From assembly GCA_018266735.1 (NCBI GenBank), contig JAFDZT010000007.1, positions 186,001 through 250,000 of the forward strand: a DNA stretch of 64,000 nt, in the 5' to 3' direction. The translations under genes were made by a program, and so were the position numbers. Of this stretch, positions 52,262 to 64,000 are shown one piece after another. Each line of letters begins with the position of its first letter. The stretch's first letter is position 1. This stretch comes from Bacteroidota bacterium (GTDB lineage: Bacteria; Bacteroidota; Ignavibacteria; Kapaibacteriales; Kapaibacteriaceae). The notes under the pieces were generated by a model. It searched no databases. It had not been told where the DNA came from and saw nothing but the letters and a program-made list of their open reading frames with translations.

Positions 52262-52334
52262 GATCCCGTAGCTCAGCTGGTAGAGCATTTGACTTTTAAT
52301 CAAAGGGTCTTGGGTTCGAGTCCCAACGGGGTCA
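52262..52334 (+). tRNA. tRNA-Lys (anticodon UUU)
   Basis: A 73-nt cloverleaf: acceptor GATCCCG / CGGGGTC (one G-T pair), D-arm GCTC...GAGC, anticodon loop CTTTTAA giving UUU, T-loop TTCGAGT, discriminator A, CCA not encoded. Its 3' half is a classic integration target, and foreign DNA begins right after it. Confidence 0.97.
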
Positions 52335-52336
52335 CT

Positions 52337-52594: not shown

Positions 52595-52616
52595 GTGTGG
52601 TATATTTGTACCACAC
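52595..52616. promoter_or_regulatory. Palindromic operator over the -7 box of the XRE gene
   Basis: GTGTGGTA - TATTTG - TACCACAC, perfect 8-bp arms, is wrapped around a TATATTTG -7 box (52601-52608), 15 bp ahead of the XRE gene ATG. A dimeric repressor bound here would block its own promoter, as XRE proteins partnered with ImmA-type proteases do. Confidence 0.7.
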
Positions 52617-52631
52617 AATGGGAGCCGCAAC

Positions 52632-53012
52632 ATGTCACAATCAATTTTCGGGACAAAGATCAAGGAGTTACGTCTGGAGTACAAATTTTCATTACGGCGG
52701 TTTTGCCTCGCAATGGACATTGATCCTAGCAACTGGTCGAAAACGGAACGCGGGATCCTGCCACCACCGAGAGATACCGACTTTTTCGAAAAGTTGGCAA
52801 CAGTACTTGAACTCGATCGATTAGACATCAAAGTCATTGAACTACGAGATGTTGCTATAACGGAGTCAGGTTCAATCCCAGACTATGTCATGAGCAACAA
52901 AGAACTGCTCGGCCTCCTTCCCATGTTCTTCCGCACAGTCGGAAACGGACGACCTTCAACTGAAGAACTGGAAAAGATGGTCAAACTAATTCAATCCACA
53001 ATTGAGAAGTAG
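52632..53012 (+). CDS. XRE-family HTH transcription regulator
   Basis: 126 residues. The N-terminal helix-turn-helix (SIFGTKIKELRLEYKFSLRRFCLAMDIDPSNWSKTERGILPPPRDTDFFEKLATVL) is of the XRE/Cro class. The C-terminal part has no obvious second domain. The gene directly precedes an ImmA/IrrE-type protease gene (4 bp gap), a common pairing in which the protease cleaves or displaces the repressor. The palindrome over its promoter suggests autoregulation. Codon use and base composition are AT-rich relative to the chromosome. Confidence 0.9.
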   Translation: MSQSIFGTKIKELRLEYKFSLRRFCLAMDIDPSNWSKTERGILPPPRDTDFFEKLATVLELDRLDIKVIELRDVAITESGSIPDYVMSNKELLGLLPMFFRTVGNGRPSTEELEKMVKLIQSTIEK

Positions 53013-53016
53013 AAAG

Positions 53017-53661
53017 ATGAACGAAGAAAACCTACCTTTCGGTACTCCTGAAACAATGGAGCAGGTGCGTGAACTCGCTGATACATTAAGAACTCTATAT
53101 GATCACACCGACAAAATTCTCGATGTAGAGCTCCTCCTAGAGCGTGACCTTGAAATCACTCTGCTCCCGGTTCCCAGCTTACTTGAGGAAACCGGTGTTG
53201 AAGCAGTGCTTTGTTGGGACCTGAAAAATATCATGGTCGATAAAGCAAGACTTGACGATAGAAAATTCTGTAATCGTTTCCGTTTCTCTCTTGCACATGA
53301 GATCGGACATGCAGTGATGCATCGTAATCTCGTGCATCTAATAAAGCCTGAAAGTATCGACGATTTCATCCTTAATGGCGATAGACTGAATTCAATGTTC
53401 TATGCTATGCTTGAAGCGCAAGCAAATGAATTCGCAGGTCGTTTACTCGTTTCAAAAGAACATCTCGCTAATGAGATCGAATTTCGAAAGCCCTATATAC
53501 AAGCGGCCGTTCGGATGGCGTCAGGCTCACGCAAAATGCTAGTTGATGTTCTTGCTGCTGGCCTTGCTGACAACTTCAAAGTATCAATTGAAGTGATGGC
53601 AATCCGATTAAGAACAGAAGATGTGCTCTTTCCTTACCTCTCATCAACAAACCCGGAGTAA
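53017..53661 (+). CDS. ImmA/IrrE-family metallopeptidase
   Basis: 214 residues from ATG 53017. The zinc-binding HEXXH is in RFSLAHEIGHAVMHRN (residues 94-98), with the third ligand region EAQANEFAGRLLV downstream. Members include ImmA of ICEBs1, which cleaves the ImmR repressor on DNA damage, and IrrE/DdrO systems. With XRE upstream and the beta-family protein 5 bp downstream it is the switch part of a three-gene operon. Confidence 0.9.
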   Translation: MNEENLPFGTPETMEQVRELADTLRTLYDHTDKILDVELLLERDLEITLLPVPSLLEETGVEAVLCWDLKNIMVDKARLDDRKFCNRFRFSLAHEIGHAVMHRNLVHLIKPESIDDFILNGDRLNSMFYAMLEAQANEFAGRLLVSKEHLANEIEFRKPYIQAAVRMASGSRKMLVDVLAAGLADNFKVSIEVMAIRLRTEDVLFPYLSSTNPE

Positions 53662-53666
53662 AATCC

Positions 53667-54719
53667 ATGTACTATCCTGTACTGCAGATACGTGAAGATG
53701 AAATCGGGGCCTTAGCCTCCTTAACTTCAAACATTAAGGAGAGTGTTGTCCCTATCATGGAGCTTGTTGGGGTTGACGCGAAACACGAAGAGTTCCTCAA
53801 GAGCTTTCAGAAGCAATGGAAAAGCAACTACTATTTTGATGTTAGGCCTTACTATTCAGATGCCCGTAGATCTGATGAACACAAGAAGATCCTGTTAAAG
53901 ACCATGTTGCCCAAAAATATCGATGACCCTTGCGACGTGATTCCTGTAATATACTTAGATGAGGGTGAGGACTTCACGTACAATGTTGGTGCATTGGCCG
54001 AGTCGAGGAAACAACGAGTTTGTCTACGACTTACTGCACAAGATCTTGCATCGAAAGACGATCTATCTTCAAGAGTGAAGCGATTCATCAACGATCTAAA
54101 ACGACCTACCAAAATGGTTGATCTCATTTACGACTATAGTCATTATGTGCGTTCTCATGACTTGAATCAAATGGCCAAGAACTTTGTTGCCAACAGAAAT
54201 GCGATCTGGGCAATCGGCGAGTTTTCGAAGGAGATACTGCATGGATCTTGTATGCCGGCTGACATGACAGACATTTCCATAGGCACACACGTTGTGAATC
54301 GATTCGAATACGAACTTTGGAAACTATGTCAAAGTACGTCCACAGGAAAGTCACTGCATTTCAGTGACAGAACCGTCATGTATCCCAAAATGCCACTTGT
54401 TTACGAAAAAGGTCAGTTCGTGAACATGACTGCGTCAGTTAAGTACACTACTAATGACAGCATTCGTATTTATCGCGGTGGGGTACTATTCAAAGGCAAG
54501 CATGGAGGACATCAACAGTACACCGCTCATGCAAAGAGCATTGTTAGTGACAACACCGTGTTTTCCGGTTCTGATTATTGCGAAGGTGACGAAAAAATCT
54601 TCACGTACTCGCAAGAGGTCGTTGGCAAGAAGGGTAAAGTGGGAACTGGAAGTCCCAATTCTTGGCGGCGGGCATCAATGAATCATCACATGACGTTGGT
54701 TGCACTGCAATTGGAGTAG
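53667..54719 (+). CDS. Beta-family (sce7725-like) protein
   Basis: 350 residues. The start MYYPVLQIREDEIGALASLT is the family's usual opening, followed by a TIM-barrel-like progression (VVPIMELVG, VIPVIYLDEG, VDLIYDY, AIWAIGEFSKE) and a C-terminal half rich in aromatic and basic residues (IYRGGVLFKGKHGGHQQYTAHAKSI). Resembles the T4-like beta protein / sce7725 family, of unknown biochemical role and found in mobile or defence-like loci. Encoded 5 bp after the protease. Its last 119 bp overlap antisense with the sce7726-like gene. Confidence 0.75.
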   Translation: MYYPVLQIREDEIGALASLTSNIKESVVPIMELVGVDAKHEEFLKSFQKQWKSNYYFDVRPYYSDARRSDEHKKILLKTMLPKNIDDPCDVIPVIYLDEGEDFTYNVGALAESRKQRVCLRLTAQDLASKDDLSSRVKRFINDLKRPTKMVDLIYDYSHYVRSHDLNQMAKNFVANRNAIWAIGEFSKEILHGSCMPADMTDISIGTHVVNRFEYELWKLCQSTSTGKSLHFSDRTVMYPKMPLVYEKGQFVNMTASVKYTTNDSIRIYRGGVLFKGKHGGHQQYTAHAKSIVSDNTVFSGSDYCEGDEKIFTYSQEVVGKKGKVGTGSPNSWRRASMNHHMTLVALQLE

Positions 54720-55314
54720 AGAATCTCTTCCAAAGCATTTGCCTTGTTGCCGAAATAATACTGTTGGGCTGGACACAGGCAATTATCAATGCATTCAATT
54801 CTTGCTTTGTCATTGATTGAATACCACGTTGATGTCCGATGGCATCACAAACGAGCTCAATTAGTTCACGTTTCCACAGCAGCAACAAACAATCAGAGGC
54901 AGATACATTTGGATTTTTCATTCCTGTTCTTACAACTCTATAACGAAGACCATTGTCTTCGTGAACAGCCCACCATTCAGGTACGATTTTCAAGGCAGCT
55001 TCAGTATGAAGAGGAGAAACAACAATTGTCATCTTGTCAAAAGTTGAAGAGAACGCTTCTGACTGCTTTGGGAGTCTGAACAGAGAGTCCCTATCGGACT
55101 TCAGCTCATATCCTGACAACGATCTCCTATTCACGGTAGCAATGTCTACTCGGTTTTCACCCATTCGAACACCAAACTCATGCACGACGACAGACTTTGT
55201 CCTACGTATAGAACGGTAGATCCTTTTCTCGGATCGTCGTCGTAAGACTGCATCATTCGTCTGCATAAATACCGGCTCGCGCTTGAATTTGAACGATTCG
55301 ATTTTTGGTGGCAT
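54601..55314 (-). CDS. sce7726-family protein
   Basis: 237 residues from ATG 55314 (ATG 55356 possible). The core VVHEFGVRMGENRVDIATVNRRSLSGYELKSDRDSLFRLPKQSEAFSSTFDKMTIVVSPLH...IVPEWWAV is the family signature, and it recalls a nuclease-like fold (the E, D and ExK residues in GVRMGENRVDIA and GYELKSD). The family is named for a Sorangium locus next to sce7725. Here the two partners are convergent with overlapping 3' ends. A restriction-like nuclease role is inference from residue spacing. Confidence 0.75.
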   Translation of the reverse strand: MPPKIESFKFKREPVFMQTNDAVLRRRSEKRIYRSIRRTKSVVVHEFGVRMGENRVDIATVNRRSLSGYELKSDRDSLFRLPKQSEAFSSTFDKMTIVVSPLHTEAALKIVPEWWAVHEDNGLRYRVVRTGMKNPNVSASDCLLLLWKRELIELVCDAIGHQRGIQSMTKQELNALIIACVQPNSIISATRQMLWKRFSTPIAVQPTSCDDSLMPAAKNWDFQFPLYPSCQRPLAST

Positions 55315-55377
55315 GTTCTTTGACAATGGAAGACTCTGATTGAAGCATGACCTCATGGTCGGAAAGGAGGCAATATT

Positions 55378-55557
55378 ATGGCAAGTAATACCGGCAAAGG
55401 TTCACGCATCGGTCCAGTAAAGGGACGGTCACAAGTGAGATCTTCGAATGGACATTATGTCAAACGCGACACAAGTAACGGGCAGTTCATTGATGTCAAG
55501 TCAGATGACAAACCATTCAAGGGTGTATCCAAAGAGCACGGCGGAAGCAAAGACTAA
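55378..55557 (+). CDS. 59-residue basic protein of a conserved small family
   Basis: The ATG has an excellent ribosome site (GGAAAGGAGG, 7 nt ahead). The protein reads MASNTGKGSRIGPVKGRSQ and later VKRDTSNGQFIDVKSD. The tail is DKPFKGVSKEH. I recall this GKGSR.G.VKGRSQ...KRDT..G.F.DVKSD pattern as a widespread hypothetical family in mobile elements. It is Lys/Arg/Ser-rich, without membrane segments; nucleic acid binding is a guess. It starts 63 bp from the divergent sce7726-like gene and probably belongs to that module. Confidence 0.7.
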   Translation: MASNTGKGSRIGPVKGRSQVRSSNGHYVKRDTSNGQFIDVKSDDKPFKGVSKEHGGSKD

Positions 55558-55758: not shown

Positions 55759-56199
55759 TTATGTCGTCAGTGGGATAGTAAACATTGGAAGTAAGAACGG
55801 AGCATGCTTACTCGTCAACGTCGTCACGTACATTCCTTCTCTAAGGAATGGAATCAACGTGTAGATCGCATTGTTACGTGCCCACAGTTCAAGTCTTGCG
55901 CTGTCGTATTCATTGCCACGATAAGCGAACCTTCCGATGATAACGTACTCAAAGGTGTACAAAGGCTCATCAAGGTCAAAACCAACTTTAACAGCCAATT
56001 CGACCGTGATTTCCCTCTTCGCTTCATCGATGCTGACGGTTCTGCCTGAGATCTTACATGCGTCCCGAATCGCATCTATATCCTCAGGCGTGCTGACCTT
56101 ATCAGACTTGATCTCAAACGCGACTTTGGACAAGTTGATCTCAACAAGCTGCACATCGCTATGCTCCAAGGCGAGCTCATGTTTCGTTGTTGTACTCAT
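55759..56199 (-). CDS. SecB-like chaperone protein
   Basis: 146 residues. The C-terminal half (YDSARLELWARNNAIYTLIPFLREGMYVTTLTSKHAPFLLPMFTIPLTT) fits the SecB-like core with its ..FPFLRE...L..P..LP pattern, and the N-terminal EHSDVQLVEINLSKVAFEIKSDK the beta-strand opening. Classical SecB holds preproteins unfolded for SecA; SecB-like proteins in islands can be antitoxin chaperones. It is translationally coupled (ATGA) to a membrane protein upstream, which could be its client. No toxin of the known SecB-TA families is adjacent. Confidence 0.65.
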   Translation of the reverse strand: MSTTTKHELALEHSDVQLVEINLSKVAFEIKSDKVSTPEDIDAIRDACKISGRTVSIDEAKREITVELAVKVGFDLDEPLYTFEYVIIGRFAYRGNEYDSARLELWARNNAIYTLIPFLREGMYVTTLTSKHAPFLLPMFTIPLTT

Positions 56200-56696
56200 G
56201 CTGCTGCTGAATATTGGGGTGGTTCTGACTTTACGACTTCAGCCATCTGCTCGTCTTGTTCGATGATCATTGGGATGGCGTATTGAGGTTTAAAAGTGAA
56301 TTGGAACCTGTATGAGTGCAATGACGTGTTGCGATTCATTCGAACTTCAACCAACAAACGATCCCTCGTGAATCCAAATGCAGCATCGATTCCGGTGTCG
56401 ATGAAGTTGAGAGGAACACCTGAATTAACAAGCGATTCATAATCACCGTTAATTGCAGGAAGCGTATCACTATGCGATTCCCTAGCGAATGCTAGAACAT
56501 CAATCGTTCGATTGACAATCGCGATACTAGAACGATGCACAAGCTTGCTCTTAGCCAATCGAACCAACATCAACTGGAAAGATCTTGAAATGAGTGTAAC
56601 AATTGGTCGTAGCAAAGGACCAACTATTACGACCAACACCAACCCTACTATTAGAGCCCATGTTGGGTTACCAAGGAATGAGAACAGGTCGTTCAT
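56196..56696 (-). CDS. Membrane-anchored protein of unknown family
   Basis: 166 residues. One N-terminal membrane segment (NPTWALIVGLVLVVIVGPLLRPIVTLI, about 9-35), then a soluble domain of about 125 residues (SIAIVNRTIDVLAF, LINFIDTGIDAAFGFTRDRLLVEVRMNR region, YRFQFTFKPQYAIPMIIEQ). I do not recognise the family. Coupled to the SecB-like gene below and 18 bp downstream of a small membrane protein gene. Confidence 0.7.
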   Translation of the reverse strand: MNDLFSFLGNPTWALIVGLVLVVIVGPLLRPIVTLISRSFQLMLVRLAKSKLVHRSSIAIVNRTIDVLAFARESHSDTLPAINGDYESLVNSGVPLNFIDTGIDAAFGFTRDRLLVEVRMNRNTSLHSYRFQFTFKPQYAIPMIIEQDEQMAEVVKSEPPQYSAAA

Positions 56697-56714
56697 GTGA
56701 TTACAACTTCATTG

Positions 56715-57050
56715 TCAGTTCAGGTTTTTAGCAATTGATGCTTTCTCAACTTCGAGCGTTTTGCCGACGTTGTTCGCCCAATGCATGATTCGGATTCTTA
56801 CAGCCTCCCATAAGCCAATCCTGTCGAGTATCAAGACGACAAGTGAGACAATCAATTTCAGCCAACCATCAAAGAAGTTGCTCCAGCCTTGAATGTATGG
56901 AAGTGCTGCCGCAGAATCTTTTGAGTGGAATATTGCAACACAGGCCACAAAAGTACTGCAAACAAAATACATAATCACCAATATTGCGGATAGTGTCGTT
57001 ACGGAAGCCCACTGCATCCCCACTGTAGTTTGATCAGGACCTGTGCCCAT
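56715..57050 (-). CDS. Small two-helix membrane protein
   Basis: 111 residues from ATG 57050, chosen because AAGGAG lies 5 nt upstream and it avoids overlapping the integrase. Two membrane segments (VTTLSAILVIMYFVCSTFVACVAIF and WLKLIVSLVVLILDRIGLW) flank a short loop, with a basic C-terminal tail. Family not recognised. First gene of a three-gene minus-strand set with the membrane-anchored and SecB-like proteins; a membrane effector with its chaperone is one possible reading. Confidence 0.7.
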   Translation of the reverse strand: MGTGPDQTTVGMQWASVTTLSAILVIMYFVCSTFVACVAIFHSKDSAAALPYIQGWSNFFDGWLKLIVSLVVLILDRIGLWEAVRIRIMHWANNVGKTLEVEKASIAKNLN

Positions 57051-57099
57051 TACCACTCCTTTCTGGAATTCTCTTCCTTCAGCAATCCCAATTGAACGA

Positions 57100-58197
57100 T
57101 TAAGTAATACTCTCAAGTCCATCCAACACGTTCCGGAGCCGTGTTGTGTCGGAGTATGTGTAGCTGTCGATCGTCGTTTTGATGTCGCTGTGTCGCATGA
57201 GCTTCTGACGATCGGCCATATCGACATTCCCCCGCTTCAACCGGTCTTGGAACGTCTTACGGAACACATGGAAACCTCCGTGCGATTCGATCTCGAGGTC
57301 GACAAATGCTTCGTGCAGCATGCGCGTAAGCGCAGAGCGAGCACCGTTGTTCCAACGAAACAATTCATCACGATTTTTCGGGAGCTTGTCCAGAATCGCG
57401 CGGACTTCACGCGATATGGGGATGAGCTCCGGGTTTCGTCGTGACTTGTTCGGAACGACAAAGGCATCGTCGACAATGTGCGATCGACACATCTTCAACG
57501 CTTCGTTGATTCGTGCTCCCGTTGCTATGAGGAAGCGCAGCAGTAGTGCAAACTCCTTGTACGCTCCCTTGTAGTCTGGGCGTAGTAGTGAATCGTCCTT
57601 GTTCTCGAAATGCCGAATGAGATTCTTGCAGATGTCGTCGGAGTAGATCCGTACGACCTTCTGGCCACCTTTGCGTTTGTACTGCGAAACGTCGGGCAGC
57701 TCGTTGATCATTTTCTTCTTGAATGCCCACCGTACGAAGACAGACAAATTCCGAAGGTGGATGTTCACCGACGTCGGTGCGTACTCCTTGTGCTTCTTCA
57801 CCCACTGCTCGATCTGACGTTCAATGTCGGGTCCGGACATCATGCCGTTCGTGGTCAGGATGCTCCGGATCGACTTGAGATATTGCTTCTTGGTCTGCTC
57901 CTGCTTGTCCGTTGCATCCATGTAGCGCTCAAAGGCCGTGATAGCGTCCTTGTACAGGATTCCGGTGTGCTCTTCCTGCCCTTGCTCTTGCCGAGCCGTC
58001 GGAAGGCCTTTGTGACGGCGATAGACGTCCCAGAGAAGCTCTTCGGCCATCCTGCGGCCGACCTTCGTGTCGGGCAGTCCGGTGGACATGCGCACGCCTT
58101 TGAACTCGATGTAGAGTCTCGAGCAATTGGCCTGTTTGAAGATCGAGCCCGGATAGGACTTGAACTTGCGCGGCTGCTTCTTTGAAACCTCTGGCAC
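57100..58197 (-). CDS. int: Tyrosine-recombinase integrase
   Basis: 365 residues from a GTG with AAGGAG upstream. Catalytic set: R229 (LIATGARINEALKM), H310-x-x-R313 (GGFHVFRKTF), H336 (KLMRHSDIKTT) and Y346 (DSYTY). N-terminal SAM-like core-binding region around 85-165. Such enzymes integrate and excise elements at tRNA sites. It follows the CI-like repressor gene on the same strand with a 6-bp gap, so repressor and integrase share a transcript. It lies about 4.8 kb from tRNA-Lys. Confidence 0.95.
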   Translation of the reverse strand: MPEVSKKQPRKFKSYPGSIFKQANCSRLYIEFKGVRMSTGLPDTKVGRRMAEELLWDVYRRHKGLPTARQEQGQEEHTGILYKDAITAFERYMDATDKQEQTKKQYLKSIRSILTTNGMMSGPDIERQIEQWVKKHKEYAPTSVNIHLRNLSVFVRWAFKKKMINELPDVSQYKRKGGQKVVRIYSDDICKNLIRHFENKDDSLLRPDYKGAYKEFALLLRFLIATGARINEALKMCRSHIVDDAFVVPNKSRRNPELIPISREVRAILDKLPKNRDELFRWNNGARSALTRMLHEAFVDLEIESHGGFHVFRKTFQDRLKRGNVDMADRQKLMRHSDIKTTIDSYTYSDTTRLRNVLDGLESIT

Positions 58198-58203
58198 GGT
58201 TTT

Positions 58204-58653
58204 TTACTCCTTCTCGGCCTTAGCCCCGCCTCGTGCCTTTCGGATCGGCGCGGATTTTCCCACCGGTAGCAATGCGCCGGTGTCCGTGAACTCGCCGACG
58301 TGAGCGCGCTCAGCGTCGAGAGCCGACCTGAGATCGTCTGTCATCAAGTCATCGTCGACGGTGACTGTCACCTCTTTCTTCAGGATCCGCACCGCGATCC
58401 TCTTTCGGAGCTCCTGTCCGGCCGGCGTCGCCGCGAACATCGGACCTTCACCGAGCAAGAGCCAATTGATGTTGAATCCAAACTCGGCAACACGGGCCAA
58501 TACCTCTGCACCGGGGTATCCATTGCCGTGAGTGTACCTGTATAGCTGCGAGGTGGAAGACATTTTCCACTCATAGCACGCTTGTAGTTGCGTGTTAAAA
58601 GTGAGTGATACCAATGCTCCGAACCTACTTGCAAATGTCGTCTTGGGGTCCAT
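58204..58653 (-). CDS. CI-like phage repressor
   Basis: 149 residues from ATG 58653 (ATG 58677 also possible). The N-terminal HTH (TTFASRFGALVSLTFNTQLQACYEWKMSSTSQLYRYTHGNGYPGAEVLARVAEFGFNINWLLLGEGPMF) ends in a NWLLLGEG motif typical of CI/Cro-type phage repressors. The C-terminal tail has no peptidase domain. Divergent from the two related + strand HTH genes; the intergenic stretch holds an inverted repeat. Confidence 0.85.
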   Translation of the reverse strand: MDPKTTFASRFGALVSLTFNTQLQACYEWKMSSTSQLYRYTHGNGYPGAEVLARVAEFGFNINWLLLGEGPMFAATPAGQELRKRIAVRILKKEVTVTVDDDLMTDDLRSALDAERAHVGEFTDTGALLPVGKSAPIRKARGGAKAEKE

Positions 58654-58654
58654 G

Positions 58655-58669
58655 TGGAAAACTTTTCCA
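58655..58669. promoter_or_regulatory. Perfect 15-bp palindrome in the repressor promoter
   Basis: TGGAAAA-C-TTTTCCA lies just before the preferred repressor start. It could be an operator for one of the three HTH proteins. The stretch 58679-58730 also has TTGACA and repeated TGCTG. Confidence 0.5.
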
Positions 58670-58766
58670 TATCGCATCTTGACATGCTGTTGTCAGTATG
58701 CTGATATTTGTACGTTGTTATGAGCATGCGCCGATCGTGCTCAACTATCGGACACAGGAGAGCAAA

Positions 58767-59219
58767 ATGCGAGTAAACGAGAAACCATCCAAGTCCAAAG
58801 TGATTGGACACCCCCGACTGCCCAACGCGGCAGATGACGAAGCACTCATCGAACGGCTAGGACGGGTCTTTGGAATGATCTTCAGGACACGAGCTGATGC
58901 GTCGGTAATTGTTGGCGTGACAACAGGTCAGATCTCCAACTACGTCAAAGGGTCTTTTCTCCCTTCCATTGCCGTGTTCTATCGGCTCGTGCATCTTGGT
59001 ATCAGTGCAGATTGGCTCCTCACTGAATCTGGCACAATGTTCACGAACAATGAAGCCGGAGACCGTCTTTACAAAATGGTCCAGCGCGGAGAGAAGCTCA
59101 CAATTGACGATCACTTTGCTTCATACTTCGCAAGTCAGCAATCACGAACAGAAGTAGCTCCAGCAACGCTCCCAATGAATGCGAGCGAGCCAATAGGTCT
59201 ATTTGGAGCAACAGCGTGA
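58767..59219 (+). CDS. CI/Cro-like HTH protein, second of three
   Basis: 150 residues from ATG 58767, preceded by AGGAG. The HTH region (RADASVIVGVTTGQISNYVKGSFLPSIAVFYRLVHLGISADWLLTESGTMF) parallels the repressor 58204-58653, including the G-[IF]-[NS]-x-[ND]-W-L-L motif. Probably the early lytic or Cro-like counterpart, transcribed rightward. Its stop overlaps the next start (GTGA). Confidence 0.8.
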   Translation: MRVNEKPSKSKVIGHPRLPNAADDEALIERLGRVFGMIFRTRADASVIVGVTTGQISNYVKGSFLPSIAVFYRLVHLGISADWLLTESGTMFTNNEAGDRLYKMVQRGEKLTIDDHFASYFASQQSRTEVAPATLPMNASEPIGLFGATA

Positions 59220-59596
59220 GAAAGGGTCTGACCGAAACTGAGGTCCTAGAATTCCAAACACGAATTCGCACGTTCTTCGAGAAGACATTTGCAAACCAGA
59301 TTGTAGCATGTGTTGTACTGTCAATGAGTGCTCCAAGCCAATTGCGTGGCTATACGAGAATTGGATACACTCCCCATTTTGACGTGCTCGTGTCTATGTC
59401 GCGACTCGGTATCAACCTCAACTGGTTGCTCCTTGGTGTTGGCGAGCAGTGGACCGACAGCCCCAACGCGAAGAAAGTGCAAGCCCTTCTCGCTTCCGGA
59501 TCGAAGATCACGATCGAATACTACTACCGCGAACTCGCCGCACCTGCTACAAGTGCGGCACCATCTCAAACCCAACCCCATAAGGATTTGCCATGA
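59216..59596 (+). CDS. CI/Cro-like HTH protein, third of three
   Basis: 126 residues from GTG 59216. The region VVLSMSAPSQLRGYTRIGYTPHFDVLVSMSRLGINLNWLLLGVGEQWTD again has the paralogous NWLLLG motif. Coupled on both sides by 4-bp overlaps. Three related DNA-binding proteins at one control locus is unusual; tandem duplication is likely. Confidence 0.75.
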   Translation: MRKGLTETEVLEFQTRIRTFFEKTFANQIVACVVLSMSAPSQLRGYTRIGYTPHFDVLVSMSRLGINLNWLLLGVGEQWTDSPNAKKVQALLASGSKITIEYYYRELAAPATSAAPSQTQPHKDLP

Positions 59597-60312
59597 ACAT
59601 CATCGGCAACGGAGGCGTCATTGCGCCTCACCCACCGGCTGCGGCTCCCAGTCAGCCTGTGGAACAACCGGCAACGGACAACGGCACATTGCTCGAGACA
59701 TCGGACGCAAACGTGATCAGCGTCGATCACCAAGTGGCCACAGTCCTCACGTCGGAGATTCATTTGCCGATCCGGTTTCACTTCGGATGTACGGCAATCT
59801 CATTGGCACATCTCGAGGGCAAGTCACCTGCAGAGATCGAAGAGCTGGTACGCGACTACTACATGCGCGTGTTCGCCGCCATGGAGAAGACGACATCGTT
59901 TCATCTTCTGCGCGAGGTGTTCCATCAGGTTCTCACCGATGCTTATCAGGACGTCAGAGCTCAGGATGAACAAGGCAATCTCGCGGTGCAGCTTCTCCTG
60001 CAGATGGATTCCATCGCCTTCCCCAAAGTCGAGCCACAGGCCGGCTCGTACTACGTGGCTAATCAGTCGCGACTCATTGATCCGCCGAAGCCCGCAGACG
60101 AGCTTCTTGCGAAGCTGCAAGGCACGGAAAGCGAAACAACTTCGCCGACCGCCCAATCCAATGGCGACGATATTGCCAACGAAGATCCCCAGACATCAGA
60201 TCAGTTAACCGCCGACGGTGGCGACGCAGAAGCCTCAACCCCGGGTGAAAGCGTCGATGCAACAACAGCACCGAGCACAGGCACCACCTCGGCACCGGAG
60301 GCGGTCAACTGA
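59593..60312 (+). CDS. Unknown protein with acidic Ser/Thr-rich tail
   Basis: 239 residues. The middle (about 50-150) is ordered (IHLPIRFHFGCTAISLAHLEGKSPAEIEELVRDYYMRVFAAMEKTTSF), and the last 70 residues are low-complexity Thr/Ser/Asp/Pro. No family recognised. ATGA overlap with the HTH gene before it. Likely an early-region phage-type protein. Confidence 0.6.
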   Translation: MNIIGNGGVIAPHPPAAAPSQPVEQPATDNGTLLETSDANVISVDHQVATVLTSEIHLPIRFHFGCTAISLAHLEGKSPAEIEELVRDYYMRVFAAMEKTTSFHLLREVFHQVLTDAYQDVRAQDEQGNLAVQLLLQMDSIAFPKVEPQAGSYYVANQSRLIDPPKPADELLAKLQGTESETTSPTAQSNGDDIANEDPQTSDQLTADGGDAEASTPGESVDATTAPSTGTTSAPEAVN

Positions 60313-60313
60313 A

Positions 60314-60595
60314 ATGCGCCGGCAGTGCACCATAGAGGATAGCCTATGGACTCGCCCGTTCGCGGCGAAGTACATCGGAATCTCCGTTAGCAGCTTACAA
60401 AAGCTCATGTTCAATGGTGCACTGCCGTATTGTTATCCCTTCCCCGACAACGAACTCGATGTGCGCCTCTTCCGCGAAGACGTGATCGCCTATCGCGAGC
60501 GCATGCGTGAAGACTCCCTACGGCTGCAGCGCAAGGCTGCGAGCCATTTCACATCGAGGTCACAACTCTACCAACGCAGGAACTACCATGACTGA
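60314..60595 (+). CDS. Excisionase/AlpA-like HTH protein
   Basis: 93 residues from ATG 60314, just after the previous stop. WTRPFAAKYIGISVSSLQKLMFNGALPYCYPFPDNELDVRLFREDVIAYRERMREDSL is a MerR-superfamily winged HTH of the excisionase/AlpA type (Ala/Tyr-x-Gly-[IV]-S, then a wing, then FxxxDVxAY). Likely directs excision or early transcription. Confidence 0.75.
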   Translation: MRRQCTIEDSLWTRPFAAKYIGISVSSLQKLMFNGALPYCYPFPDNELDVRLFREDVIAYRERMREDSLRLQRKAASHFTSRSQLYQRRNYHD

Positions 60596-61130
60596 AGCAG
60601 TCCACACGGATGCGCTATCGGATGCGCATGCCCAGAATGTCCAAAGTGATGATCCCAATGCCGCCACGGAGCCGGAAGGCATCGAAACAGCCCATCCTAG
60701 CCCTGTGATCCACACTCCGATCGACGATGCCGTGTTCATTCCGGCTGCGGGTGCCTTCGTGCATCCCGTGGCACGGCCGGGACACATCGCCTATACCCTT
60801 CTTGTGGTCGATCCGTCCGAGGTGGGCAAGCCACCCATCATCGGCAGCAGCTACATGAAGGTCGCATTTCCCGATCTCAACCTTCCGGAGCAGTTCAATC
60901 TCATGTCGCTGCCCGATCAGGAGCGCATCTGGGACAAGCTCAACGAGATCATCCTCGTGAGAAACGAGTCAGTGGTTCCCATCGAGGCCAAGGGACTGTG
61001 CTTCGTGAGTGAGGAATGGATTCTGGAGCACTATCCGCACATGATTCTCGGGCACGAAAGCGAAGAAAACGGCCCTGAAAGGCCTCAAAACCTCGCAGAA
61101 AGTTCACCACTTGTCACGATTCACCCTTGA
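60588..61130 (+). CDS. Unknown phage-type protein
   Basis: 180 residues from ATG 60588, overlapping the HTH stop by 8 bp. The first 40 residues are acidic and low-complexity; the centre has TLLVVDPSEVGKPPIIGSSYMKVAFPDLNLPEQFNLMSLPDQERIWDKLNEIILV, mainly helical. No family recognised. Confidence 0.6.
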   Translation: MTEAVHTDALSDAHAQNVQSDDPNAATEPEGIETAHPSPVIHTPIDDAVFIPAAGAFVHPVARPGHIAYTLLVVDPSEVGKPPIIGSSYMKVAFPDLNLPEQFNLMSLPDQERIWDKLNEIILVRNESVVPIEAKGLCFVSEEWILEHYPHMILGHESEENGPERPQNLAESSPLVTIHP

Positions 61131-61145
61131 TCGCGGCACAGTAAT

Positions 61146-61185
61146 GCTCAGCCCTGTTCAGCAACGCTCAGTATTGATCAGTATC
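61146..61185. repeat. Four helically phased GNTCAG decamers
   Basis: GCTCAG, GTTCAG, GCTCAG and GATCAG start exactly 10 bp apart (61146, 61156, 61166, 61176), ahead of the preferred start of the next gene. The same motif recurs at 63081-63114. Likely protein-binding sites on one DNA face. Confidence 0.7.
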
Positions 61186-61203
61186 GACGGAAAAGGTGTC
61201 CAG

Positions 61204-61614
61204 ATGTGCCCAGTAATCACGGATGAAGAGGATCCGCGCATGTTCCACGGAGCCCCGAACAGGGAGTCCGGAGACTCTGCACGGGCTTCTGCAAAGAAGA
61301 AGTCGACAAAAGGAACCACTTCAGCAAAGAGTGGAGCTCGTCCGATCACCTTCGTGAACATTCCGAAGCTCAAAGGGCGCGATTTGCGGAAGATGCTCCG
61401 CCTTTCCGGTCACAGCCTTGCGCACTTCTCACGCTACATGGGACGCTCGAGGTCGTGGGCATCGGAAGTGATCGTCCCTCTCTCCAACGTGTCGACCTCA
61501 ACGGTCGAGGGGCTCTACACAATGCTTGGCCACGATCAGTTCTGGACGGTCTACACGCGAGCGACAGGCTGCGATGTGCCGGCCGAGAGCGTGCTTGAAG
61601 GCGAGGACGAGTAG
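61204..61614 (+). CDS. HTH-containing phage-type protein
   Basis: 136 residues if started at ATG 61204; the frame is open to TTG 61111, but the repeats just upstream favour the later start. The C-terminal half (KLKGRDLRKMLRLSGHSLAHFSRYMGRSRSWASEVIVPLSNVSTSTVEGLYTML) has an XRE-like helix-turn-helix. The N-terminal half is basic and Ser/Lys-rich (ARASAKKKSTKGTTSAKSGAR). Confidence 0.65.
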   Translation: MCPVITDEEDPRMFHGAPNRESGDSARASAKKKSTKGTTSAKSGARPITFVNIPKLKGRDLRKMLRLSGHSLAHFSRYMGRSRSWASEVIVPLSNVSTSTVEGLYTMLGHDQFWTVYTRATGCDVPAESVLEGEDE

Positions 61615-61743
61615 ATGATGTACGAACGCACCATAGCCGCCATCGGAAGTCGTACACCTGCACGCAGAACTGCGGCTGCGGCCGCACAACCAACGATACA
61701 AGAGTTTCAACAGCACATCTGTTTGAGGGAAGCACAATGCTAA
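61615..61743 (+). CDS. Possible 42-residue small protein
   Basis: Starts with ATGATG one base after the previous stop and runs into the repeated start-codon array. Begins MMYERTIAAIGSRTPARR; Ala/Arg-rich. Small phage genes of this size occur, but no family match is evident. Low to moderate support. Confidence 0.4.
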   Translation: MMYERTIAAIGSRTPARRTAAAAAQPTIQEFQQHICLREAQC

Positions 61744-61775
61744 AGGAAGCGCAATGCTAAAGGAGGCACAATGCT
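61726..61775 (+). repeat. Triplicated 17-bp ribosome-site-plus-ATG unit
   Basis: The unit GGAAGCACAATGCTAAA (with small changes) recurs three times at a 17-bp period, placing ATGs at 61737, 61754 and 61771, each behind a GGAAG or GGAGG. The first two ATGs open mini-frames of 7 and 9 residues that overlap the next start; only the third leads into the long gene. Confidence 0.85.
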
Positions 61776-62157
61776 ACAAGTAACCGGATTCGGATTGCTC
61801 TCGGTCGCAGGCCAAGAAGAGAGCCGGCGCGACGAACTGCGGGAGTTCTGGACGCGAACGAAGGACGTGGCCATCGGCAGCCTGAGCGACATGCAGCGGG
61901 CAGTAATGCAGCGCCTTGTGAAGGATCTGCCGGAGCACTGCCGCATGGCGAGCTCGCTGCCGGCATTCGACGTCGAGATCGAGCGTACGGACGGTGACCG
62001 AGTTGTGCACCGCGTACAAGCAACGTCGCAGCTGCACGCAAGGCGTACGGCCGTTGCTCGAGAGATGAAGGCACTGAAGCGTGTGCTCACCGTGCGCGTT
62101 GCTCCAATCGATGCGGCGGCCACCGTGGCGCCGGAACACTGGTTCATGCGGCAGTGA
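61771..62157 (+). CDS. Unknown phage-type protein
   Basis: 128 residues from ATG 61771 with AGGAGG 5-6 nt upstream. Sequence such as MQRAVMQRLVKDLPEHCRMASSLPAFDVEIERTDGDRVVHRVQATSQLHARRTAVAREMKALKRVLTVRVAP shows mixed helix and strand and many Arg/Lys; no family recognised. Confidence 0.6.
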   Translation: MLQVTGFGLLSVAGQEESRRDELREFWTRTKDVAIGSLSDMQRAVMQRLVKDLPEHCRMASSLPAFDVEIERTDGDRVVHRVQATSQLHARRTAVAREMKALKRVLTVRVAPIDAAATVAPEHWFMRQ

Positions 62158-62426
62158 GCATGCGGTGACGAAGAACATGGCCATCAGGGAATGAACGCGG
62201 ACCTCCCTCGCCCACGAGTGAGACGCAGTGCGGGCTTCAAAACCTCGCATACCCTTATGGCTTCCCGTGGCATGGTTACAGCCGTGCCGCGGGTTTGATC
62301 GCAGCGCAGCGGTTGCGCGAGGGAGAGAAGGCTAGCACCTCGTCTTCGGTTCGACTCCGGAGGCTGCGGCACTTGACGAGACGGCAATGACGGTTTCCTG
62401 CGACACGACAAATCACGGAGAGATGA
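62158..62426. other. Non-coding control region before the replication-like gene
   Basis: 270 bp with no gene. It holds the 12-bp hairpin described below and a T-arm-like motif (GGTTCGACTCC with a 5-bp stem) that does not extend to a full tRNA. Likely promoter and RNA-control region for the rep-like gene. Confidence 0.5.
62264..62293. other. 12-bp RNA-type hairpin
   Basis: CCCGTGGCATGG pairs with CCGTGCCGCGGG (two G-T pairs) around a TTACAG loop. Not followed by a T-run, so not an intrinsic terminator; it may be an attenuator, an antisense target or an origin element. Confidence 0.55.
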
Positions 62427-63263
62427 ATGGCAGCACGGCGTTATCTGCGCTCGGTCGACTTCTACGACGAGATGGAAGACCTCGGCCTTCTGTGCGACGA
62501 GAAGTACCTCTACGCCTATCTGAGCCTCAACAGGCACATGTCCGTGAGCGGCATCTACGAGATCCAGCGCCGCGTGATCATGGTCGACACGGGTATCTCG
62601 CGTGATCGCATCGATGCGTGCCTGCAGCGGCTCGTAGCGCTCGATCTGATACGCTACGACGCCGGACTCATGTTCGTGCCGCGCATTCACACTGAGCAGA
62701 GCCTGCAGACCCGCAAGGGGTGGCAGTCCATGCTTCGGCGCCTGAGACGCATCCATAAGGATCACCGCTCGGACCTGCCCGGAGCGGAGAATCAAGCCTA
62801 CACGGCCTTTCTCGCCACGCTCGCGGAGTACTACTACGAGATCGATTCGGCAGACGAAATGGACATCGCGGAAGCGGCCGAATCAGGCGAGGATCCGCCG
62901 GAATCTGTGGCCACGGAAGCGGGAGGATCGGGACCGCCGAGAGCAAGTCCGCCAAGTCCGGATGAGTCGTTCGAGAGAGCTGTCGAGGAGGCAAAACGAA
63001 CTCGGCAGGCAACGATTCCGGACACAGAAACGGGTCGGAATCGGGAACCGGAAGAGGATGAAACGGAAGGAATCGACTCCGATCAGCCGTTCAGAAATGA
63101 TCAGAAACGCTCAGAAAACGGGGGTGAATCCCCACCGATCGGAGGAAGTAGCGAGGGCGAGCATCCGCCGGCACCTCGGGATCATCCTCCGGACGTTTCG
63201 ATCGGCGACGGCGAGGAGGCTGAAAACTCCCATGAAATTTTTGAAAAGTCATGGGAAAACTGA
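62427..63263 (+). CDS. Replication-initiator-like winged-helix protein
   Basis: 278 residues. GGAGAG precedes the ATG. Residues 1-110 (RYLRSVDFYDEMEDLGLLCDEKYLYAYLSLNRHMSVSGIYEIQRRVIMVDTGISRDRIDACLQRLVALDLIRYDAGLMFVPRI) match the N-terminal winged-helix of DnaD-like phage replisome organisers (CGIYE-type signature, two-helix then wing). The C-terminal 130 residues are acidic and low-complexity. A repeat array within the gene (63081-63114) and an iteron-like array just after it support a replication role. Confidence 0.7.
   Translation: MAARRYLRSVDFYDEMEDLGLLCDEKYLYAYLSLNRHMSVSGIYEIQRRVIMVDTGISRDRIDACLQRLVALDLIRYDAGLMFVPRIHTEQSLQTRKGWQSMLRRLRRIHKDHRSDLPGAENQAYTAFLATLAEYYYEIDSADEMDIAEAAESGEDPPESVATEAGGSGPPRASPPSPDESFERAVEEAKRTRQATIPDTETGRNREPEEDETEGIDSDQPFRNDQKRSENGGESPPIGGSSEGEHPPAPRDHPPDVSIGDGEEAENSHEIFEKSWEN
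63081..63114. repeat. Second GNTCAG array, inside the rep-like gene
   Basis: GATCAG at 63081, GTTCAG at 63089, GATCAG at 63099 and GCTCAG at 63109, spaced 8, 10 and 10 bp. Same hexamers as the array at 61146-61185. Confidence 0.7.
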
Positions 63264-63423
63264 AAAAGTCACGGGAAAAACGGAAACGGCATGGGAAACC
63301 CGCAACATTCTGGGAATTCTTCGGGACTCCCGCGTAAAACAGTGTTTTTCACGGGAACACCACGGAATTCTATAAAAGTCATGGGAATTCCCGCGTTTTC
63401 GTTCATAAACACACGGAAAAGTC
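63244..63423. repeat. Iteron-like array, candidate replication origin
   Basis: Copies of a GTCA[TC]GGGAA core recur in an AT-rich stretch overlapping the end of the rep-like gene. GGG blocks begin at 63253, 63273, 63293, 63312, 63323, 63353 and 63383, close to multiples of 10 bp, and several are flanked by A-runs (AAAAGTCATGGGAA). A GGGAATTCCC palindrome lies at 63383-63392. Consistent with protein-bound repeats of a replication origin. Confidence 0.65.
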
Positions 63424-63457
63424 TCAAAATTCACGTCACTACTTTAAGATAGTTAAG

Positions 63458-64000
63458 ATGGTTAAGATGGTTAAGTCAGAAAGACAACAGGTTCCGAATT
63501 CCGGAATGGAGGGGTGCGGGGAGGAAAACCAAAACCCGTACCCACCGGATCGCGCTTCCTCCCCGTCCGCCCACCTTGGCACGAGCTCGGAGCAAACCGG
63601 CCTGCCTGAGCCGGACAACGAGGGCGCACCACCGACCCAAGCGGGATCCTCGCAGATGCGCCTTGCCATCGAGGGCGTACCCCGTGAGCCGATCGGCCAC
63701 TGGCGAGCGCTCATGGACCTGCAGGTGGCCGACTGGAAGCCGAACGGGCAGTACACGCCGGAGGGCAACCCCATGCCGCTCGGCACTCCGGCGCCGGCAG
63801 CCGCTCCGGGAGCTACTGCGGCCGCAAAGCCGGCCGTGCTCAACATCCGCGAGATCATCCGCTCGATCGACGGTTGGGTGTGGCCGCTGAAGAACACTCC
63901 CGGGACGTTGCGCGCTCTGCCTCGAGGGACGGTCGACTTCCTCCGGAGGACGCTTGCCGAGTTCGACCGTGAGACGCTCGTTGGTCTCGCGCTGAGCCTC
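63458..64000 (+). CDS. Unknown protein, runs off the window end
   Basis: An open frame from ATG 63458 (or 63467, 63656) with no stop before 64000, at least 181 residues. It begins MVKMVKSERQQV, inside a 9-bp tandem repeat. It continues with a Pro/Ser-rich section and a better-ordered part (MRLAIEGVPREPIGHWRAL from 63656, then WVWPLKNTPGTLRALP). Codon use is GC-rich and protein-like throughout. No family recognised; DNA-binding or structural phage roles are both possible. Confidence 0.6.
   Translation, partial: MVKMVKSERQQVPNSGMEGCGEENQNPYPPDRASSPSAHLGTSSEQTGLPEPDNEGAPPTQAGSSQMRLAIEGVPREPIGHWRALMDLQVADWKPNGQYTPEGNPMPLGTPAPAAAPGATAAAKPAVLNIREIIRSIDGWVWPLKNTPGTLRALPRGTVDFLRRTLAEFDRETLVGLALSL

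Follow-up and report, generated by a model that had tools for sequence, protein, structure and literature searches.

The five genes at 52632-55557 of the window, the 64,000-nucleotide stretch of a Bacteroidota genome analysed here, are best read as an inducible anti-phage cassette carried by a phage-like element integrated at tRNA-Lys. We give this reading, in which the present copy would itself act in defence, a probability of about 0.68. Judged from its genes, the cassette appears to be a CapHP-like switch driving a beta/cII core. Established here are which genes it contains and how they are arranged, their homologies and predicted folds, the conserved palindrome and the conservation of the set as a unit. 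The preliminary description had guessed at an inducible defence or stress module, and inducible defence is still the best reading; it had also named the five genes correctly. Profile matches were obtained for all of them. The features are as follows.

52293..52335, plus strand: attL, the 3' half of tRNA-Lys(UUU), a 43-bp direct repeat
52595..52616, no strand assigned: 22-bp palindrome GTGTGGTATATTTGTACCACAC, candidate XRE operator, 15 bp before the XRE ATG
52632..53012, plus strand: XRE repressor, CapH-like, 126 aa (Pfam HTH_31, 1.5e-5, just below the cut-off)
53017..53661, plus strand: M78/ImmA-IrrE metallopeptidase, CapP-like, 214 aa (PF06114, 4e-11)
53667..54719, plus strand: Beta protein of the PD-lambda-2C / P4 beta family, 350 aa (PF14350, 3.6e-49)
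54601..54719, no strand assigned: tail-to-tail overlap of beta and sce7726, 119 bp, an arrangement kept across phyla
54601..55266, minus strand: sce7726 / cII ('cll') protein, 221 aa from the likely start (NCBIfam NF033832, 1.2e-33)
55378..55557, plus strand: 59-aa basic protein, PADLOC candidate PDC-S38 / phrog_12550 (PDC-S38, 2.4e-24 over residues 1-53)
57100..58197, minus strand: tyrosine integrase of the 51-kb element, a neighbour of the five-gene module but outside it

The cassette and the element that carries it

The 43-bp direct repeat, CTTTTAATCAAAGGGTCTTGGGTTCGAGTCCCAACGGGGTCAC, is perfect and its second copy lies 51.2 kb downstream of attL, at C11:289468-289510 of the contig. The element thus runs for 51.2 kb at tRNA-Lys, from window position 52293 to C11:289510, with the repeat at both ends. 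Between the two copies are the tyrosine integrase and matches to a phage endolysin, a DnaB-like helicase and a DnaA-like replisome organiser. The repeat and the phage-type genes between its copies place the five-gene module as cargo just inside attL, and from this gene content the element appears to be phage-like or prophage-like. A 38-bp tRNA pattern, sought as an empty attachment site, was found in one of five relatives, with 3 mismatches. The element also carries ORFs of 1265-1828 aa, and a GINxNWLLLG-type motif is common to three adjacent repressor-like ORFs at 58204-59596.

The GC content of the module is 0.435, against 0.577 in window positions 1-52000 and 0.570 in positions 58200-64000. 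The AT-rich stretch reported previously is therefore real, but its border fails to single out the five genes because the AT-richness continues to approximately 57.1 kb (GC 0.445) and covers three more genes. These three genes (55759-57053, minus strand) separate the module from the integrase, so the five genes do lie between tRNA-Lys and the integrase, but not by themselves. They were rejected as module members, being without a match in either of the two related loci described below. They encode a SecB-like protein (PADLOC PD-T4-9_C, 1.1e-3) followed by two small membrane-looking proteins, and their sole other relative among 340 genomes is a copy in genome G101 with an internal stop. Promoter and terminator scans gave a signal no higher than in shuffles.

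All five genes were found in the same arrangement in G101, a genome of the same genus (locus L055), and in an Ignavibacteria MAG (locus L149). Identities to the window in L055 and L149, respectively, are 50 and 50% for XRE, 47 and 46% for M78, 44 and 42% for Beta, 48 and 49% for sce7726 and 68 and 59% for the 59-aa protein. The flanks of the two loci differ from those of the window and from each other, although the two loci are not fully independent since they are fairly close to each other (Beta 77% identical). This recurrence is beyond chance and supports the conclusion that, within this lineage, the five genes form a unit. The set is nevertheless modular: beta/sce7726 is nearly invariant, but both the XRE-M78 switch and the 59-aa gene can be found at other places where the pair is missing. 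The interpretation in the preliminary description is thus supported in part.

The Beta/sce7726 core

The Beta protein matches the PADLOC profiles PD-Lambda-2_C (3.4e-35) and beta (1.2e-7). Its earlier label, beta-family (sce7725), is supported as to PF14350 membership but not as to sce7725, as the NCBIfam sce7725 profile gave 15.6 of 60 bits, far under the cut-off. The Beta profile found no match by sequence among solved structures. The predicted model (pLDDT 86) matches TIM barrels throughout, the best match being a designed barrel (Z 13.4, 3.6 Å, 211 aligned). Residues D156, R212 and D234 are kept in 23/24, 24/24 and 24/24 homologues and sit at or just beyond predicted strand ends, which in the model would fit a binding or catalytic pocket. 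These conserved polar residues could equally make Beta an enzyme in its own right.

The sce7726 ORF spans 54601-55356 on the minus strand. The ATG at 55266 (MQTNDAVLR) was taken as the likely start because most homologues begin near NDAVLR, and with this start 111 bp separate sce7726 from the divergent 59-aa gene. The protein matches the PADLOC cll profile (4.7e-20). Its model, made with 25 homologues, has a pLDDT of 88 with low confidence at 189-215 only; about 33 C-terminal residues are disordered and are coded antisense to the end of beta. The preliminary description had pointed to a nuclease-like spacing of E, D and ExK residues, and the structure comparison agrees with this as the model has the order of elements of a PD-(D/E)xK core with the expected residues. 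D41 lies in strand 38-45, E54xK56 in strand 50-56 and Q68xxx[FY]72 in the next helix. E30, D41, E54, K56, S57 and Q68 are invariant in 25/25 sequences; at position 72, 22 of the 25 have Y and 3 have F. The top match with VIA-align, which was also the one Foldseek match below 0.001, was 3dnx (Z 9.8, rmsd 7.7, 139 aligned), a protein without a known function. PaqCI came second (Z 9.5, 3.5 Å, 123 aligned), and further nucleases were SdaI (Z 7.7), Can2 (Z 7.5) and McrBC (Z 6.2), so that, where a matched structure has a named function, it is mostly that of a nuclease with the PD-(D/E)xK fold. With every motif residue conserved, the confident model predicts sce7726 to be a PD-(D/E)xK nuclease.

Beta (PF14350) occurs in 5 of 345 genomes of the phylum, and in all five the next gene is a convergent sce7726. 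Strong Beta/sce7726 pairs were also gathered more widely, from plasmids, phage P4 and both viral and GTDB contigs, made non-redundant at 80% Beta identity and tallied by hand. The genome scan for sce7726 used a two-sequence alignment. All 39 pairs are convergent, and in 37 of them the two genes overlap, by 8-122 bp. For scale, a hand count in 50 kb of E. coli K-12 gave one overlap of at least 8 bp in eight convergent neighbour pairs. L064 was counted among the 39 despite a weak Beta match (9e-5), and L059, with a weak Beta match (E 1e-5) and Beta on the same strand as sce7726, was left out. As the loci were partly gathered via sce7726, the count shows the constancy of the arrangement and not the frequency of Beta without sce7726. 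In a plasmid search started from Beta, sce7726 was annotated at most of the matches. A Beta-only search of viral contigs found nothing. The 119-bp overlap in the window was absent from the preliminary description.

That description also held the pair to be without an established role, which is not the case: the two proteins are beta and cII of gop-beta-cII, Beta is in addition PD-lambda-2C, and both systems have been tested against phage. The P4 gop-beta-cII system gives protection from both lambda and P1, and in it Gop becomes toxic when Beta is missing (PMC9122126). In PD-lambda-2 the toxic B protein is neutralised by A, and defence against lambda-vir requires C, the Beta protein (PMC9519451). 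The order in P4 is gop, beta, then convergent cII and int. The window resembles this in having Beta followed by a convergent cII/sce7726 adjoining an integrase, with the cll and beta profile matches given above, but it lacks gop, has XRE and M78 in the place of gop and PDC-S38 in addition, and shows an overlap where P4 has a 27-bp gap. No match to the gop profile was found over the ten proteins scanned (P4 Gop scores 4.8e-70). E. coli PD-lambda-2 consists of HigB-like A, Xre-peptidase B and Beta C, thus sharing with the window the XRE and M78 functions followed by Beta; however, XRE and M78 are separate genes in the window, and the published definition is without the opposite-strand sce7726. 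The PD-Lambda-2_B profile had no match in XRE or M78 (the Sinorhizobium B protein scores 2.4e-77), and the ORFs listed from the tRNA to XRE, read through by eye, showed none that looked HigB-like. As gop and a fused 2B are missing and nothing HigB-like was seen, the cassette is filed as a variant and as a member of neither system. It probably works as they do.

The genes upstream of Beta vary. Sinorhizobium and L150 have DUF6932 and a fused Xre-M78 matching PD-Lambda-2_B, and in Sinorhizobium PD-Lambda-2 B and C are followed by a convergent sce7726. A type IIG restriction-methyltransferase directly adjoins Beta in G144 (L056:3959-7309), L153 has a PemK-like toxin with Xre-M78, and many phage loci have nothing recognisable. 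Since the upstream genes vary and HigB with Xre-M78 occurs also without Beta, switch and core appear to be exchangeable. On an Acinetobacter plasmid (L194:3001-4432), a relative of the L150 Xre-M78 protein lies beside NDM-1, with a short ORF and IS30 where Beta would be.

The switch and the 59-residue protein

XRE gave a weak match to the PADLOC capH profile (7.5e-4). The M78 protein matched capP (1.4e-13) and contains HExxH as HEIGH, and a search of solved structures by sequence gave no match for it. Once ssDNA activates it, CapP cleaves CapH, and both CapW and CapH with CapP have been described as "controllers of associated/adjacent pathways" (PMC13373217); likewise, PprI binds ssDNA and cleaves DdrO (PMC10904395). 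As judged by sequence, M78 and XRE are similar to CapP and CapH, a switch set off by ssDNA. The split XRE and M78 genes ahead of an immune operon, and the promoter palindrome, are as in the CapH and CapP controllers of CBASS and other systems, except that here the switch would drive Beta and not CBASS, and that the XRE match is weak.

The palindrome directly before XRE is kept in 3/3 loci, as GTGTGGTATATTTGTACCACAC in the window, GTGTGGTATTCTTGTACCACAC in G101 and GTGTGGTATTATTGTACCACAT in L149. It is the single such site in the genome of the window, and the chance expectation in the window is none. A search of viral contigs returned two matches, both without XRE, M78 or beta genes. As a candidate operator, the palindrome fits autoregulation by XRE of xre-immA-beta. 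It was also sought in the intergenic stretch between sce7726 and the 59-aa gene and was absent, so these two genes may be expressed independently of the switch.

The 59-aa protein is a clear member of the PDC-S38 family but here accompanies the beta/sce7726 core. By sequence it had weak matches only among solved structures, and a literature search found no paper naming PDC-S38. The family is present in 17 Bacteroidota genomes at 18 loci, and at 12 of these an M78 gene lies no more than about 2.2 kb away. This nearness was paired by hand from coordinates, and the 17 genomes hold 23 M78 matches only. The probability of its arising by chance is about 1e-29 at a rate near 0.0017, and 7e-17 if the rate is raised tenfold for defence islands. 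Neighbours of the Bacteroidota genes include Pycsar, CBASS and multi-ubiquitin (ubiquitin-like operon) genes; at one further locus there is a WYL regulator. On plasmids PDC-S38 often, but not always, adjoins WYL regulators, XRE with ImmA, Xre-M78 or restriction systems. In viral contigs it is near M78 in 5 of 29 non-redundant loci, a weaker association than in Bacteroidota, and some of the layouts are alike. PADLOC candidate families are chosen for nearness to defence genes, and so the nearness of PDC-S38 to defence is partly by construction, that to M78 less so. A role for PDC-S38 in the switch is a guess. A gene of 137-175 aa, PIN-like by eye, adjoins Xre-M78 fusions near PDC-S38 in L164, L170, L176, L177 and L178, and a DUF2188 gene lies near PDC-S38 at L178:3523-3786 (by eye) and L053:4171-4392 (annotated).

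Proposed mechanism and its alternatives

The scheme that follows is inferred as regards repression, cleavage and its trigger by ssDNA, the nuclease activity, the direction of regulation and the defence provided by this copy. XRE bound to the palindrome at 52595-52616 would hold xre-immA-beta low. Phage attack or DNA damage would give more ssDNA, upon which M78 would cleave XRE, as in CapP/CapH and PprI/DdrO, and the operon would be induced. Beta would then act with sce7726, the predicted nuclease, read from the opposite strand and from its own promoter. Most likely sce7726 would cut the DNA of the phage or of the host, with abortive infection as the outcome, and TIM-barrel Beta would most likely license or restrain it. 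Through their tail-to-tail overlap the two genes would stay linked, and antisense transcription could couple their expression; the 59-aa PDC-S38 protein would be an accessory, perhaps of the switch. Against this scheme, the cassette contains no evident toxin gene, be it Gop, HigB-like or another, so the effector has to be deduced, and sce7726 is the sole gene with a plausible toxic active site. The weak capH match of XRE, the lack of a solved structure matching M78 by sequence, the absence of the palindrome between sce7726 and PDC-S38 and the possible enzyme role of Beta also count against it.

The role of PDC-S38 is where another explanation departs, namely that two neighbours are present, a switch with a Beta/sce7726 defence system and, beside it, an independent PDC-S38 gene. 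PDC-S38 is without Beta in 15/17 Bacteroidota genomes, the phage copies are mostly without M78, and no palindrome lies upstream of the gene; yet it takes the same place in 3/3 five-gene loci, and in Bacteroidota its nearness to M78 is far above chance, which leaves this explanation doubtful though appreciable.

It is unlikely that the cassette is a toxin-antitoxin system in which one protein is a toxin held by another and freed by phage, as in PD-lambda-2 and gop-beta, the toxin being M78, XRE combined with M78, or sce7726, and Beta being the antitoxin or trigger. Beta is indeed the partner common to the two systems, PD-lambda-2B being toxic alone and rescued by 2A (PMC9519451) and Gop being toxic without Beta (PMC9122126). 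However, neither the HigB-like 2A nor Gop was found in the window cassette, XRE and M78 are separate like CapH and CapP and unlike 2B, and a plausible toxic active site is confined to sce7726. Pairs of XRE and ImmA also govern the induction of mobile elements and the five genes lie between attL and int, so the module might control excision or superinfection of its host element as a regulatory or lysogeny module rather than defend. This is very improbable given that L055 and L149 carry the five genes in a different setting, that the integrase of the window has no match in either locus and that the element has CI-like regulators of its own.

If the inducible anti-phage reading is correct, the cassette would link two separately described anti-phage systems via one conserved core. 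It would name sce7726/cII as the likely nuclease for both gop-beta-cII and PD-lambda-2, and a CapHP-type switch would join the list of controllers of the Beta/sce7726 core. A broader proposal, which we put forward tentatively and with the odds somewhat against it, is that gop-beta-cII and PD-lambda-2 are one system, an obligate antisense-overlapping Beta/nuclease core with interchangeable switches (Gop; HigB or DUF6932 with Xre-M78; a CapHP-like pair; a type IIG methyltransferase), and that PDC-S38 accompanies Cap controllers responsive to ssDNA across unrelated immune operons, as a partner so far overlooked. Were the core obligate, the published definition of PD-lambda-2 would be without its nuclease gene. 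The cassette is compact, and the roles of Beta, sce7726 and PDC-S38 would be directly testable in it.
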